A stretch of DNA of 64,000 nucleotides. Source: Fictibacillus marinisediminis. GTDB lineage: Bacteria > Bacillota > Bacilli > Bacillales > Fictibacillaceae. The stretch is taken from contig NZ_JAIWJX010000002.1 of assembly GCF_023149135.1 (NCBI RefSeq), forward strand, positions 310,001 to 374,000, given 5' to 3'. Both the position numbers and the translations under genes were made by a program. Below the pieces are notes generated by a model, which worked only from the letters and a program-made list of their open reading frames with translations, searched no databases and had not been told where the DNA came from. Each line of letters begins with the position of its first letter. Within the stretch, counting starts at the first letter, position 1. This document shows, in pieces, positions 16,205-54,536 of this stretch.

Positions 16205-17236
16205 ATGAAAAAATGGCTGCTTAGCTTTTGTGCGGCTCTATTGATCCTAGGCGGTGCAGGCTGCCAGAAGGAAGAAACGGCAAGTAACAAAAAGCCTGTG
16301 GAACATGTGAAAGCTCCTGAAAAGAAAGAAAAGAAGACAGAGCTGAAAAACACGTATCCGCTGACAGGAATCAAAACGAACAAGGACACCGATGCAAGGG
16401 TGTTTGCCGTAATGATCAATAACCACTGGAAGGCTCGTCCGCAGTCCGGGCTTCATAAGGCGGATCTCGTATACGAAGTTTTGGCGGAAGGGGATATTAC
16501 ACGCTTTCTTGCCGTATTTCAGAGCGAGAAGCCAGAGGTGGTCGGGCCTGTCCGCAGCGCACGCGATTACTTTATCGAGCTGAGCCAGGGTTTTCATGCT
16601 TTTTACGTTCATCATGGCTGGAGTCCGGAAGCGAAGAAAATCCTTTCCGGCAGCAACAGCAAGGTGGATTCGCTGAACGGCCTGTATTATGACGGAACGC
16701 TTTTTCACCGGGCATCGTTTCGGCAAGCGCCTCATAACTCGTATATTAAGTACAAAGACATCATGAAAGGTTTAAAGAAGAAAGGCTATGACAATAAAGA
16801 TAAAATAAAGCCTCTTCCTTTCTTAAAACCATCGGAGGTCAAAGCGCTTACTGGTGACAAAGCCGATAAAGTTCTGATAACATACAATCACGGTGAGACC
16901 GTCGGCTATACGTACGACTCATCAACGAAACGGTATGCCCGCTTTAGCAACGAGAAGCCGACCGCTGACCGCGAAACCAAAACACCGATCGAACTCGATA
17001 ATGTGCTGATTGTGGAAGCGAGCCATAAAATCATTGATAGTTACGGACGAAGAGAAATTGACCTTACATCCGGAGGCAAAGCCATTTTGCTTCAGCGCGG
17101 AAAAGCCAGGGAAGTTAGCTGGGAAAACAAAGACGGCAGAATCATCCCGTCTGGCACAGGTTTTGTACCGGGAAAAACCTGGATTAACATCATCCCGGCG
17201 CAGCCAGGAATCAGTAAGAGCGTTTCTATTGAATAG
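16205..17236 (+). CDS. yerB: DUF3048 lipoprotein (YerB)
   Basis: 343 residues. A signal peptide ends at the lipobox LGGAGC (Cys about residue 19), so it should be lipid-anchored outside the membrane. After a charged linker the DUF3048 domain begins (YPLTGIKTN, ARVFAVMINNHWKARPQSGL, YEVLAEGDITRFLAVF, GPVRSARDYF). The biochemical role is unknown. It lies 21 bases before yerC and follows the yerA ortholog, as in B. subtilis. Confidence 0.88.
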   Translation: MKKWLLSFCAALLILGGAGCQKEETASNKKPVEHVKAPEKKEKKTELKNTYPLTGIKTNKDTDARVFAVMINNHWKARPQSGLHKADLVYEVLAEGDITRFLAVFQSEKPEVVGPVRSARDYFIELSQGFHAFYVHHGWSPEAKKILSGSNSKVDSLNGLYYDGTLFHRASFRQAPHNSYIKYKDIMKGLKKKGYDNKDKIKPLPFLKPSEVKALTGDKADKVLITYNHGETVGYTYDSSTKRYARFSNEKPTADRETKTPIELDNVLIVEASHKIIDSYGRREIDLTSGGKAILLQRGKAREVSWENKDGRIIPSGTGFVPGKTWINIIPAQPGISKSVSIE

Positions 17237-17257
17237 AGCAGAAGGAGTGCAAAGTAC

Positions 17258-17566
17258 ATGCAAATTGATAAATTAAGAGGGAAGGCGCTTGATCAGCTGT
17301 TTGAAGCCGTCCTTTCACTAAAAGATCTGGAAGAATGCTATATGTTCTTCGATGATCTGTGCACGATGAACGAGATCCAGTCACTGGCACAGCGCCTTGA
17401 AGTAGCCCGCATGCTTCGTGAAGGAAAGACCTATCATAAAATTGAATCAGAAACCGGTGCCAGCACAGCAACGATTTCCCGTGTGAAACGATGCCTGAAC
17501 TTCGGAAACGATGCCTATCAAATGGCTCTCGACCGTGTGCACGGAAATAAAGAAGAAACAAAGTAA
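17258..17566 (+). CDS. yerC: YerC/TrpR-like DNA-binding protein
   Basis: 102 residues. The TrpR/YerC/YecD family fold is shown by FFDDLCTMNEIQSLAQRLEVARML followed by the helix-turn-helix KTYHKIESETGASTATISRVKRCL (about residues 58-81). A probable transcription regulator of unknown targets. ATG at 17258 with AAGGAG upstream; followed directly by a terminator. Confidence 0.88.
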   Translation: MQIDKLRGKALDQLFEAVLSLKDLEECYMFFDDLCTMNEIQSLAQRLEVARMLREGKTYHKIESETGASTATISRVKRCLNFGNDAYQMALDRVHGNKEETK

Positions 17567-17600
17567 AACCTGTAACGCCTTTGGGCGGTGCAGGTTTTTT
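17567..17600 (+). terminator. Terminator after yerC
   Basis: AACCTG-TA-ACGCC pairs with GGCGG-T-GCAGGTT and is followed by a T-run; it begins immediately after the yerC stop. Confidence 0.85.
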
Positions 17601-17624
17601 GTTTTGTGGGGTTACACGGCCTGA

Positions 17625-17804
17625 CGATTTTTTATGAAAATGATGTGTTTTGCAAGTAAGTGGTCCATTATCGCAAGTAAAGACTGTATTTTCGCAAGTA
17701 AATGGTGTCGAACCGCAAGTAAACTCACCATTTCCGCAAGTAAAACATGTCGAACCGCAAGTAACGACCACAGACAAGCCATTTGAGGCCGACAAAAAGG
17801 CCAC
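17625..17804. repeat. GCAAGTAA array, copy 1 (six units, 21-nt period)
   Basis: GCAAGTAA occurs at 17652, 17673, 17694, 17715, 17736 and 17757, each exactly 21 bases after the last, with 13-base spacers that differ. Conserved flanks are CGATTTTTTATGAAAATGAT on the left and GACAAGCCATTTGAGG...AAAAAGGCCAC on the right. The same unit, inverted, is at 53144-53324. Weak open frames run through it on both strands because 21 is divisible by 3, but none has a convincing start. Function unknown. Confidence 0.8.
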
Positions 17805-17837
17805 CATGAATCCAAACATTGGGCAGCCTCCACACAT

Positions 17838-18257
17838 TTAAAGCTTTCGAGTAAATACTTCCTGTTTCTTCACACGTTCATAGCCGATGTTTTCATAAAA
17901 TTGGTGCGCTTCTTTTCGTTCAGCGCCCGAACGGAGCCGGATTTGATCATAGCCGTTTTCCAGCGCCCACGTTTCACATTTTTTCATTAATTCTTTTCCA
18001 TTACCTGACCGGCGTTGTGACTCATCGACTACCAAACCGCCGATCTCGCAATACTCCATTCGCAGAAAGGTTTTTCCGTAGACATGAACCCAGCCGGCGA
18101 TCGTACCGTTCACTTCTTGTACAAAAAGAGCAGCATTTTCCTGGATGATAATTTTTTCCAACCGTGTTATGATTTCAGTAGTGTCACCTGTGCAGCCGAG
18201 CTGCAACGACAGGGAAGCCAAGGCGGATACGTCCTCTAAGGTGGCTTGTCTAATCAT
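17838..18257 (-). CDS. GNAT family N-acetyltransferase
   Basis: 139 residues. GNAT fold: IGGLVVDESQRRSGNGKELM (about residues 72-91) holds the acetyl-CoA loop, although the usual Q/RxxGxG/A reads RRSGNG, and AHQFYENIGYE is the typical C-terminal motif. Substrate unknown. Start at 18257 has GAGGTGAT upstream. It converges on yerC across the repeat array. Confidence 0.8.
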   Translation of the reverse strand: MIRQATLEDVSALASLSLQLGCTGDTTEIITRLEKIIIQENAALFVQEVNGTIAGWVHVYGKTFLRMEYCEIGGLVVDESQRRSGNGKELMKKCETWALENGYDQIRLRSGAERKEAHQFYENIGYERVKKQEVFTRKL

Positions 18258-35816: not shown

Positions 35817-35976
35817 TAAAGGTATTTTTAACTATGTAAATCCTCTATGAAGTTTAGGTAAAACTTAAAGGAAACACCTATAATTCCTTTCTTATTTACG
35901 TTAATGTTGGTCAAGAAAGCTTGTTACATTAATTTTCTTAATCAATGGCATCATCAAGCTTATGAGGAGGCTTATT

Positions 35977-36984
35977 ATGAACAAAAAAATAATTACGGCA
36001 GCATCCGTATTGCTTATTTCGGCAGGTTTAATGGCTTTTCATCCGTTCAATTCTAAAGATACTGAGGCTTTTGCGGTCTCTAGTAGTGCCAAAGCAACCA
36101 CCACTTCTTCTGCAAATGATAATGGAAAGCAAAATATATCTGACCAGTTTGAGAAAATCAGCAGAGACACAAAATGGCAACAAAAAGAAAAGATTGATCT
36201 GCAATTTAATAACTATCATTCACAAGGTATGGTTAAGGTTGGGGACCTTTTTTATATGTCTGCCGTTCAGATTATCGAAAAGCCTGTTAAATATGGCAAG
36301 ATCGTGGACGGTTATGACCGTTCTCCAGGTAAAGGGATAGGCCACCTTTTTGTGTTTACGAAAGAAGGAAAGCTTGTAAAAGACATCAAACTGGGTGAAG
36401 GGAACATGTATCATCCTGGCGGTATCGATTTTGATGGGAAAAATATCTGGGTATCTGTTGCTGAATACCGCCCCAACAGCCATTCCATCGTCTACAAAGT
36501 GGATCCTAAAACAAAGGATGCCAAAGAAGCCTTCCGTGTTCAGGATCATATCGGAGGAATGGTACGAGACGGTCAAAGTGGAAAAATTATAGGAAATAGC
36601 TGGGGTTCCCGCAAGTTCTATGAGTGGAATGAACAAGGAAAGCAGCTGGCTAAGAAGGAAAATACCAGTCATTTTATTGATTACCAGGACGGTCATTATG
36701 CAGGAAACGGAAAAATGATCTTAAGTGGAATAGCTGAGCTGCCTGATCCAGCAAATAGTAATTCCAAGCCTTATGAATTAGGCGGAGTCGCTTTGGTGGA
36801 CATGAAAACTCTAGATACCATCCACGAAGCACCAATCACTGAATTTTCTCCACAAGGACATGTGATTACTCGGAATCCTGTATTCATGGAAAATGCCGGT
36901 CAAGAGCTTCGCCTATATGCTGTTCCTGATGATGACAACGGCTCCTTGCTGGTTTATGAAACAAACCATCTTAATGAGAACTAA
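35977..36984 (+). CDS. Secreted DUF6454 family beta-propeller-like protein
   Basis: 335 residues. A signal peptide (about residues 1-32) is followed by a Ser/Thr-rich linker, then repeats of the type GNMYHPGGIDFDGKNIWVSVAEY and DHIGGMVRDGQSGKIIGNSWGSRKFYEW that look like beta-propeller blades. It resembles DUF6454 proteins of unknown function. The start at 35977 has AGGAGG upstream; the earlier ATG overlaps that site. It stands alone. Confidence 0.65.
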   Translation: MNKKIITAASVLLISAGLMAFHPFNSKDTEAFAVSSSAKATTTSSANDNGKQNISDQFEKISRDTKWQQKEKIDLQFNNYHSQGMVKVGDLFYMSAVQIIEKPVKYGKIVDGYDRSPGKGIGHLFVFTKEGKLVKDIKLGEGNMYHPGGIDFDGKNIWVSVAEYRPNSHSIVYKVDPKTKDAKEAFRVQDHIGGMVRDGQSGKIIGNSWGSRKFYEWNEQGKQLAKKENTSHFIDYQDGHYAGNGKMILSGIAELPDPANSNSKPYELGGVALVDMKTLDTIHEAPITEFSPQGHVITRNPVFMENAGQELRLYAVPDDDNGSLLVYETNHLNEN

Positions 36985-52434: not shown

Positions 52435-52452
52435 AAATTGGGGGGTCATTCG

Positions 52453-52977
52453 ATGTTTTTTGTGCAAATGTCAGGTTTTCCGGGTTCCGGCAAGTCCACA
52501 CTTGCTCGAGAAATAGCAAAAAGATCGGGAGCAGTCATTATTGATCATGACATCGTAAAGTCTGCTTTATTGTATAGTATGGAAGAAATCCAAATAGATT
52601 CAAGGGCAGCAGGCAGGGTTTCCTATGAAATTGAATGGGCGTTGATTGACTTTCACTTATCCCAAGGACATGCTGTTATATTGGATAGTCCTTGCTTGTA
52701 TGATGAAATGGTTGATAAGGGAACAGCACTTGCTGAAAAATATCATGTGAAATACAAGTACGTGGAGTGCTGCCTTGATGATCTAAGTAAAATAAACGCC
52801 AGGCTGAAAAACCGTAAACAAATGATCAGCCAAATAAAAGATATTAAGTCTGAAGCTGCCTTTGAAGAAACGATGGGAAACAGCAAAAAACCAGCCAATC
52901 ATCAGTGTCTTGTTGTTGACACTGGACAGCCTTTAGAAAGTTACATTGCCGAGGTTATGAACTACATTAACGAGTGA
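52453..52977 (+). CDS. P-loop kinase-like protein
   Basis: 174 residues. Walker A GFPGSGKST (about residues 7-15) followed by IIDHDIVKSAL, and IDFHLSQGHAVILDSP in place of Walker B. Belongs to the zeta-toxin/APS-kinase-like group of small-molecule kinases (AAA_33). Phosphate acceptor unknown; a nucleoside is a reasonable guess from its neighbour. ATG at 52453 with GGGGGG upstream. Confidence 0.75.
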   Translation: MFFVQMSGFPGSGKSTLAREIAKRSGAVIIDHDIVKSALLYSMEEIQIDSRAAGRVSYEIEWALIDFHLSQGHAVILDSPCLYDEMVDKGTALAEKYHVKYKYVECCLDDLSKINARLKNRKQMISQIKDIKSEAAFEETMGNSKKPANHQCLVVDTGQPLESYIAEVMNYINE

Positions 52978-53143
52978 AAAAGGGGATGGAAATAGAGGCG
53001 GCTCGGTTGTTCGGGAGAAAATCCGATCAGTTCTACATGTAATTTTGAAGCAATATATGTACCATCCACCCAAGTTTAAGAACTCGACAAAAATAGTAGA
53101 TTTACTCGTAAAAATATGGAGCACCTAGTGATTTAATGATCAA

Positions 53144-53324
53144 GTGGCCTTTTTGGCGACCCTCAAATGGCTTGTGCAGAACCGTTACTTGCGGTTCGAC
53201 ACATGTTACTTGCGAAAATGATGAGTTTACTTGCGAGATTTGGGACTTTACTTGCAGAAATCCTCCATTTACTTGCGAAAACCCAGCTTTTACTTGCAGA
53301 ACGCATCATTTTCATAAAAAATCG
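53144..53324. repeat. GCAAGTAA array, copy 2 (inverted, six units, 21-nt period)
   Basis: TTACTTGC (the complement of GCAAGTAA) at 53185, 53206, 53227, 53248, 53269 and 53290, exactly every 21 bases. Both flanks match copy 1 (17625-17804) in inverted orientation, with the same six units and nearly equal length (181 against 180 bases). Spacers next to the GGCC flank are similar in both copies; the others differ. The remaining non-coding DNA at 52978-53143 and 53325-53579 shows nothing clear. Confidence 0.8.
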
Positions 53325-53579
53325 ATCTGCCATACGCGTGGACCCATTGCGAGAGCGAGGCTAAACAGTATAGGACTTAGATTACGAAAACTAATTCGAA
53401 GGACCTGGGTGCGGAGGATTGTTTTATTAATATTGACGATAAGGATCAGCTGCATGCTTGTTTAGAAAGTATGTATTGTCTTCAAAGAGAACTCAAAATT
53501 CAAAGGTATTCATTGCCCATACAAGATAGACATATACTGAATGGATACTTGTGATCGGATGAGAAAGGAGCTATCACCT

Positions 53580-54536
53580 TTGACAAAATATCGGATCATG
53601 ACCTTTGATGGAGGCGGTACCCTAGGTGCTTTAAGTTTACAGCTTTTGAATAGACTGGCTCAGCAAAATCCAAAATTAATTAGTCGGACCCATGTTTTCG
53701 CGGGAAATTCAATCGGTTCATTTACTGCCCTTGCGTTGGCAAGTGGAAGATCACCGAAGGAGACTTTCCAGTTCTTTAAGGAAAAAATCTTGCCGGCATT
53801 CAGCATTTCCCGACCAGGTGGACCTGTGTTTAATCAACAATTGCCCTATTCTGGTTTTATTGAAGCGGTACGAACATTTTTTCCATCAGATCTTCGTCTC
53901 AAAGACTTAAAAAGACGAATGGTTGTCCCTTCATTTCAATTATTTTCACCGGAGCTGAATCGTTGGACTCCTGTGCTATTCCACAACTTTCCTGGCTCTC
54001 CCTATTTAAATGAAAAAGCGAGTGATGTAATACTGAGGAGCAGCGGTGCTCCCGCGACGCAACGAGCCTATCAAAACTACGTGGATGGGTATACAGTAGC
54101 AACTAACCCAAGTACAGCCAGTATCGCGTTTGCAGTGGGTAAAGCCAAAGTGCCGTTAGATCAAATTGCGGTATTATCCATTGGAACAGGTGAAGCCCCG
54201 ACTCAGTTAAGAAGAGATACGAGGGGGTGGGGGATGGTGAGTGCAGATAACATACGCCCGGAGAATCTGAAGAACCTTCCTCCAAATTGGGGAGTCCTTA
54301 TGGACCGATCGCCCAATGAACCCTTACTGCCATTTCTTCAAATTGTCGCTGGCGGAAATGGGTACTATGAATCCATGGTCAGTTCTAATCTTCTGGGAAA
54401 ACGTTTTTTTCGGTTAGATCCACGGATCCCTAACTTCTCCAAAACGGACCCTACCGTGGTTCCGGCTGTCATTGAAATTGCGAACAAAACCAATTTACAG
54501 CCTGCCGTTCAATTTATAGAGAAAAACTGGAACTAA
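53580..54536 (+). CDS. Patatin-like phospholipase
   Basis: 318 residues. RIMTFDGGGTLGALSLQLL (glycine-rich oxyanion hole), FAGNSIGSFTALAL (GxSxG nucleophile serine, about residue 48) and YVDGYTVATNP (catalytic Asp, DG-Y instead of the usual DGG/DGA) are present. Releases fatty acids from phospholipids. TTG at 53580 is the start because AAAGGAG is 9 bases upstream. Followed by an unusually long terminator hairpin. No cyclic-nucleotide synthase nearby. Confidence 0.85.
   Translation: MTKYRIMTFDGGGTLGALSLQLLNRLAQQNPKLISRTHVFAGNSIGSFTALALASGRSPKETFQFFKEKILPAFSISRPGGPVFNQQLPYSGFIEAVRTFFPSDLRLKDLKRRMVVPSFQLFSPELNRWTPVLFHNFPGSPYLNEKASDVILRSSGAPATQRAYQNYVDGYTVATNPSTASIAFAVGKAKVPLDQIAVLSIGTGEAPTQLRRDTRGWGMVSADNIRPENLKNLPPNWGVLMDRSPNEPLLPFLQIVAGGNGYYESMVSSNLLGKRFFRLDPRIPNFSKTDPTVVPAVIEIANKTNLQPAVQFIEKNWN

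Follow-up and report, generated by a model that had tools for sequence, protein, structure and literature searches.

Plasmid iterons and partition-site repeats consist of several direct repeats of ~20-22 bp in helical phase, REP and BIME elements are dispersed, multi-copy elements with a palindromic unit that lie at the ends of transcription units, and CRISPR loci alternate repeats of roughly 21-48 nt with spacers that are comparably long. STAR elements of Staphylococcus are interspersed intergenic direct repeats with locus-specific spacers; the report on them (PMC3532100) describes the element at gapR as beginning with a conserved start signature, after which come 1-6 conserved motifs divided by variable spacers, the motif being 14 bp long and GC-rich, T(G/A/T)TGTTG(G/T)GGCCC(C/A), and the spacers 40-44 bp. 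According to the same text, no function is known for STAR or for other dispersed intergenic direct repeats of the kind.

Two arrays that can be set beside these systems lie in a window of 64,000 nucleotides (C2:310001-374000) from the 4,565,559-base assembly of a Fictibacillus strain (G000). A preliminary description had proposed a pair of ~180-bp arrays, and BLAST aligned 17625-17804 (copy 1, L014) with 53144-53324 (copy 2, L015) at 79% identity, at exactly the limits first given. Six units at a 21-nt period, as also claimed, were found without deviation in both copies: the word GCAAGTAA stands at 17652, 17673, 17694, 17715, 17736 and 17757 on the forward strand in copy 1 and six times from 53185 to 53290, in steps of 21, on the reverse strand in copy 2, which amounts to 10 exact pairs vs 0 in 100 dinucleotide shuffles. 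Period scans at 20, 21 and 22 nt detected no other array in the window. The two copies do align across their flanks, but the core common to further copies spans just ~140 bp (17628-17767), and among 81 loci from six genomes the 3' extension to 17804 was confined to the window copies and the two loci orthologous to them (L168 and L167) in a strain of the same species, G004. The spacers differ, as had been noted, but not randomly; they form classes, one of which is TGTCGAA. Features of both loci are collected in Table 1.

Table 1. Features at and around the two arrays, in positions of the window.
Feature	Position	Strand	Basis or remark
Upstream gene of copy 1, Trp_repressor family, product presumably YerC-like	17258..17566	+	PF01371, 4.1e-36
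Intrinsic terminator, hairpin of -18.8 kcal/mol with T-rich tail	17565..17605	+	behind Trp-repressor-family gene, 25 bp before leader
Copy 1 leader, TTTATGAAAATGATGTGTTTT	17631..17651	+	variants precede most arrays
Copy 1, six GCAAGTAA units, period 21	17652..17764	+	word and period scans
TGTCGAA, Spo0A-box core, copy 1 spacer 3	17706..17712	+	sequence match
TGTCGAA, Spo0A-box core, copy 1 spacer 5	17748..17754	+	42 bp from spacer-3 box
Copy 1 3' extension	17765..17804	+	only window copies and their G004 orthologs
GNAT acetyltransferase gene, convergent, downstream of copy 1	17838..18257	-	PF00583
AAA_33 ATPase gene, 3' end toward 3' side of copy 2	52438..52977	+	PF13671
Copy 2 3' extension, matches 17765-17804	53144..53184	-	BLAST
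Copy 2, six GCAAGTAA units, period 21	53185..53297	-	word and period scans
TGTCGAA, Spo0A-box core, copy 2 spacer 5	53195..53201	-	sequence match
Copy 2 leader, TTTATGAAAATGATGCGTTCT	53298..53318	-	sequence
Patatin-like phospholipase gene, 5' side of copy 2	53541..54536	+	PF01734

Across the G000 genome, the exact pair GCAAGTAA-N13-GCAAGTAA occurs 89 times (43 forward, 46 reverse) and the reversed-pattern control 0 times. The pairs group into 20 arrays (L009-L028), a count that leaves out degenerate relatives recovered as weaker BLAST matches; with further relatives in other Bacillales, the suggestion of a dispersed element was thereby borne out. Four near-identical arrays sit behind 23S-5S genes of rRNA operons and the other 16 elsewhere. 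Beside each rRNA-linked array lies a second, degenerate one with 70% BLAST identity to copy 1 (C2:15542-15681, 35847-35986, 101956-102095 and 238866-239005). The usual build is a 21-nt leader, which reads TTTATGAAAATGATGTGTTTT or ends in GACGTGATAT and has other variants, followed by units of 8 + 13 nt. When units were counted with the tolerant word GCNANTAW in chains of at least three, six proved to be the modal number, found in 17 of 20 arrays in G000, 19 of 22 in G004, 18 of 21 in G002 and 6 of 7 in G005, with 2 of 8 in G006 and 0 of 2 in G001; the word itself is often GCAACTAA or GCAAGTAT in G001, G002 and G005. Non-rRNA copies within G000 have no spacers in common (120 pairs, mean identity 0.41, maximum 0.66). 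Searches of open-licence PMC text found no published description of the GCAAGTAA word or of this build. Four features were absent from the preliminary description: the genome-wide mode of six units, the presence of the Spo0A-box core among the spacers, the position at gene ends and the existence of sister families.

STAR is the nearest known kind, alike in layout, and the arrays are not STAR elements. The Fictibacillus arrays have the STAR-like order of a leader and then repeated units, modally six, with spacers distinct at each locus, and the end of the STAR start signature, AGAAATGAT in PMC3532100, resembles GAAAATGAT of the array leader by eye. However, the signature sequence differs, the conserved word is the 8-bp GCAAGTAA rather than the 14-bp GC-rich motif, the spacers are 13 bp in a strict 21-bp period rather than 40-44 bp, and neither the modal six units nor the Spo0A-box cores are STAR-like. 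The arrays share direct repeats in helical phase with plasmid iterons and partition-site repeats, but they occupy ~20 chromosomal places, conserve only 8 bp and gave only short, weak matches to plasmid records. They resemble REP/BIME in being multi-copy and dispersed at transcription-unit ends, whereas their unit is not palindromic and their array strand lacks a fold; the copy 1 region contains no inverted repeat. Although a short repeat with variable spacers recalls CRISPR, an 8-nt repeat with 13-nt spacers falls outside that definition, and the spacers here drift by point change in 20 scattered arrays of about six units. An origin in plasmids or phages was rejected: plasmid and phage records yielded no more than the short weak matches, and nine viral contigs with the pattern carry near-identical units that are dissimilar to those of the arrays, several of them coding in appearance by eye.

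Comparison between strains separated constrained from free letters. For the 16 non-rRNA ortholog pairs between G000 and G004 (four poorly aligned rRNA-linked pairs being left out), differences numbered 4/709 in the 8-mer, 60/1005 in the spacers and 6/336 in the leader, with ~5% in the flanks (5' 215/4300, 3' 255/4832). The contrast between 8-mer and spacer is about ten-fold (Fisher 1.7e-10), and we estimate that the choice of exact-match words in G000 lowers the motif difference count by about half at most. Unfixed spacing in other copies had been named as evidence that would speak against a phased site, and spacings over the same 16 pairs were 21 in 78 of 79 cases in G000 and 78 of 81 in G004. 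Gap openings were not significantly fewer in arrays (10/1650) than in intergenic flanks (32/2943, p 0.11); of the 10 array gaps, 7 have no effect on spacing, 2 alter it and 1 amounts to an additional whole unit, and one more altered spacing (L016) lies outside the gap-counted span. Spacer identity gave no sign of locus-specific descent across species: at six orthologous loci (0.29-0.58) it was not above that at other loci (0.43, sd 0.12), a result that fits drift to saturation and replacement alike. The array of L027 in G000 is identical to that of L192 in G006 over 113 bp, while the 3' flanks are ~10% different (30 mismatches in 286); strong constraint, conversion or transfer may each account for this identity.

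Because a 21-nt period equals seven codons and the leader carries an in-frame ATG, with few stops in several frames, the arrays might encode heptapeptide repeats. Translation, which the preliminary description had listed as a finding that would overturn its proposal, is nonetheless extremely improbable: differences are spread over codon positions (16/290, 19/289 and 21/362), the shortage of stops extends to four of the six frames rather than marking one, the leader has no obvious ribosome site by eye, its first ATG is missing in some copies, and other genera include units of 18-20 nt. Opposite-strand open frames span both window arrays (17226-17837 on the reverse strand, 53136-53465 on the forward strand), and spurious protein annotation is possible there.

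A reading at the RNA level, in which transcripts that run on beyond the terminator would present six GCAAGUAA sites to an RNA-binding protein, draws on the arrays' lying behind a co-oriented ORF in 13 of 16 non-rRNA cases in G000 and, in other genera, in 10 of the 11 clusters that could be judged. It is very unlikely, given that fold energy on the array strand was ordinary (22 arrays, 60 shuffles each, z -1.92 to 2.19), that single-stranded RNA offers no evident reason for a 21-nt period held constant to the nucleotide, and that some arrays, copy 2 included, break the orientation rule. On the opposite strand, the window copies gave z -4.85 (L015) and -2.22 (L014), and L026 gave -2.0; one 14-nt inverted pair in copy 2 is the sole lead on the L015 value. 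The window arrays had no Rfam match, and the only one in the window is a purine riboswitch at 538-639 on the forward strand. A Rho-type site was also rejected, the sense strand not being C-rich (C 0.209 and 0.249).

Since the 8-mer is constrained, the units keep a two-turn phase and the spacers are free, with neither a fold on the array strand nor a reading frame, a protein on double-stranded DNA fits best. The earlier proposal of a phased protein-binding site on one helix face thus gains from the 8-mer constraint, the fixed 21-bp spacing and the lack of codon bias and of an array-strand fold, while its suggestion of a protein filament gained nothing from these data.

The spacers fall into two classes, a feature new here. 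Across six genomes, 151 of 372 spacers carry exact TGTCGAA at unit positions 13-19: 31/99 in G000, 32/105 in G004, 11/27 in G006, 57/101 in G002 and 20/40 in G005 and G001 together, counts that are not independent, given the common descent of G000 and G004 and the near-identity of the four rRNA copies. Forms with one mismatch are few (2, 5, 0, 3 and 2, in the same order), and shuffled spacers contained no exact TGTCGAA at these positions. The boxes lie on the array strand and prefer units 1, 3 and 5, which puts them 42 bp apart. In the 4.57-Mb G000 genome as a whole, TGTCGAA occurs 394 times (reversed control 1202), so that ~0.2 would be expected in 2.5 kb of arrays; the arrays hold 31 of the 394 within 0.06% of the genome. 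Between strains, TGTCGAA letters differed at 5/161 and other spacer letters at 51/780 (p 0.10), a suggestive contrast to which the two-class distribution lends support.

In two reports, TGTCGAA is given as the core of the Spo0A box (PMC3485338, PMC5295017), and the replication origin of B. subtilis contains such boxes (PMC5295017). The likeness is close, in that the core is exact and repeated and the genome encodes Spo0A; a Spo0A_C domain was found in all 17 genomes asked, the source genome included. Unlike the boxes described in those texts, which lie in promoter regions or oriC (PMC3485338, PMC5295017), those of the arrays are interleaved with another repeat and mostly stand behind gene ends. 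Spo0A is the natural second candidate ligand in Fictibacillus arrays, and from these matches we infer that it may occupy the array boxes; if it does, a sizeable block of its sites lies in arrays, mostly outside promoters. The same protein cannot be the general ligand, since TGTCGAA was absent from 137 arrays scanned in ten other groups, of which seven had genomes asked and encode Spo0A_C. G000 also encodes a second, diverged Spo0A_C-domain protein (C2:3737497-3737778, 74.6 bits; the other is at 2562981); neither G004 nor any of the five remaining Fictibacillus genomes yielded a counterpart.

The fixed register of TGTCGAA, always two letters before GCAAGTAA in the counted spacers, and the odd/even alternation common in G002 could also reflect one protein that reads a long strong site, TGTCGAACCGCAAGTAA, alternating with a weak plain YCGCAAGTAA, the identity with the Spo0A box being coincidental. 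This is doubtful on two indirect grounds: an exact seven-letter match to the core of a regulator encoded in the genome is unlikely to arise by chance, and a sister family of arrays, built on GTTCAAAA, has GTCG-type boxes without GCAAGTAA.

The genomic context places the arrays mostly behind genes. The nearest upstream ORF, among mechanically called ORFs, was co-oriented in the 13 of 16 non-rRNA arrays noted above, the exceptions being L015 (copy 2 of the window), L022 and L028; copy 2 points toward the origin and does not follow a co-oriented gene. In 13 of 16 non-rRNA arrays the 75 bp ahead of the leader contain a hairpin with a T-rich tail, as they do in 13 of 21 arrays of G002 and in none of the four rRNA-linked arrays, an uncontrolled count that includes some weak hairpins. 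The comparison in other genera comprised eleven loci picked for long arrays, with 12 clusters, one of them unjudgeable; one of the ten co-oriented ORFs is 506 bp away, and L063 is the exception. At the copy 1 locus, five relatives match the upstream gene: G006 keeps two units there, G002, G003 and G005 have no array and wholly different sequence behind the gene, and the stretch from G001 contains no GCAAGTAA pair. Because the locus differs so broadly in array-free relatives, it offers no clean insertion boundary.

With dnaA at C2:22-1344 in G000, the 16 non-rRNA GCAAGTAA arrays lie nearer the origin than a uniform distribution would place them (KS 1.7e-4), a bias absent in the GTTCAAAA family (KS 0.26). 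As to orientation, 13 of 16 GCAAGTAA and 8 of 10 GTTCAAAA arrays point away from the origin; the total of 21 of 26 departs from 50% (p 0.0025), but orientation along replication was rejected as a principle, as the proportions match an assumed 75% gene-strand bias (p 0.77 for 13/16, 0.65 for 21/26). In G006, where dnaA lies close to the beginning of C8, every pair on C8 points away from it, and in G197 two loci flank dnaA, both pointing away. A phasing of A/T steps at 10.5 bp was seen in the arrays of two Fictibacillus genomes (z 15.6 and 9.4) but not in Psychrobacillus (z -2.3), and intrinsic curvature as a general principle was rejected accordingly.

Taken together, the sequence data suggest, at about even probability, that the arrays are dispersed, non-coding binding platforms on double-stranded DNA with an architectural function, in which Spo0A takes part in Fictibacillus. 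A putative sequence-specific protein would bind the six GCAAGTAA sites, exactly two helical turns apart on one face; many odd-numbered spacers of the Fictibacillus arrays would have become Spo0A-box cores, typically four turns apart, and phosphorylated Spo0A would join the array on starvation. Because the arrays lie mostly beyond gene ends and terminators and are origin-biased, local DNA architecture is the likely output: gene ends in the origin half would be bent or bridged, and a mild buffering of Spo0A would be a by-product. The sequences themselves show the dispersal, the six-unit build, the fixed phase, the constrained 8-mer, the TGTCGAA class at its one position and the genomic context. 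From these we infer protein binding, with Spo0A among the probable binders, and an architectural role that is a guess from genomic context. The rigid build, the defined constrained letters and a spacer class equal to a regulator's core make the function of such a repeat testable by binding assays.

Relatives of the arrays occur in other Bacillales. A three-unit pattern matched 112 stretches in named genomes, most of them from Psychrobacillus, Fictibacillus, Ureibacillus, Planococcus, Kurthia, Neobacillus and kin, and several stretches in distant MAGs resemble simple tandem repeats by eye. An exact GCAAGTAA pair was present in 17 of 299 sampled genomes of the order, and the word is therefore patchy. 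Psychrobacillus arrays have another leader, yet 44 of 73 have six units. The 21-nt period is not universal, as arrays of Neobacillus, Psychrobacillus and Ureibacillus include 18-20-nt units. Long clusters of 23-41 words were seen at L041, L051, L058 and L090 (Psychrobacillus) and at L106 (Ureibacillus), and whole elements are tandemly repeated in Psychrobacillus in steps of roughly 156-226 bp.

The GTTCAAAA family, whose word is unrelated to GCAAGTAA, comprises 20 exact pairs at ten places in G000 and 7 pairs in G006, with none in G001-G005. In 8 of 10 loci the tail has GTCG words at a spacing of exactly 10 bp; being mutual copies, these loci do not count as independent. Seven of the ten were followed from G000 to G004 and read by eye. 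In place of the GTTCAAAA array, G004 has four TTATCGA-type units with a period of exactly 20 nt (L233/L245) or a TTCGATAATATA remnant (L235/L251); elsewhere it holds a degenerate, inverted form of the same array (L232/L247), an array shortened or interrupted with a dispersed-repeat copy alongside (L230/L248, L237/L249), a gap that takes further sequence with the array (L238/L250) or, within the 420 letters compared, unrelated sequence (L229/L246). Conversely, at L156 a GCAAGTAA array in G004 corresponds to four GTTCAAAA units at 20-21 nt in G000. One intergenic place can therefore hold different array families in two strains. In G006, five copies of GTGAGTAA immediately precede a GCAAGTAA array.

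Similarly built sister families, turnover in copy number, replacement at the same place between two strains and the whole-element tandem copies of Psychrobacillus are what a selfish or passive dispersed repeat that prefers sites behind terminators might produce, its build being due to copying and not to host function. We regard this as decidedly unlikely, because the 8-mer is constrained about ten-fold while spacers drift at the flank rate, non-rRNA copies within a genome do not share spacers, an unsystematic look met no transposase or target duplication, and the one array-free site seen (L238/L250) lacks more than the array. A tentative and rather improbable extension of the platform interpretation is that the arrays are interchangeable phased landing sites, in which slots, many of them behind gene ends, would be filled by unrelated families of 20-21-bp words, each with its own protein, two Fictibacillus families having independently gained Spo0A-type boxes. 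Were this so, the arrays would shape the architecture of the origin half in response to starvation instead of acting as promoter sites.

A MITE-like dispersed repeat of ~250 bp, with at least some 40 genome copies at 71-92% identity, was also encountered. It is present at L156:819-1080 and, for example, at C2:3332527-3332759 of G000, and in the sister strain its copies adjoin or interrupt GTTCAAAA arrays (L248, L249).
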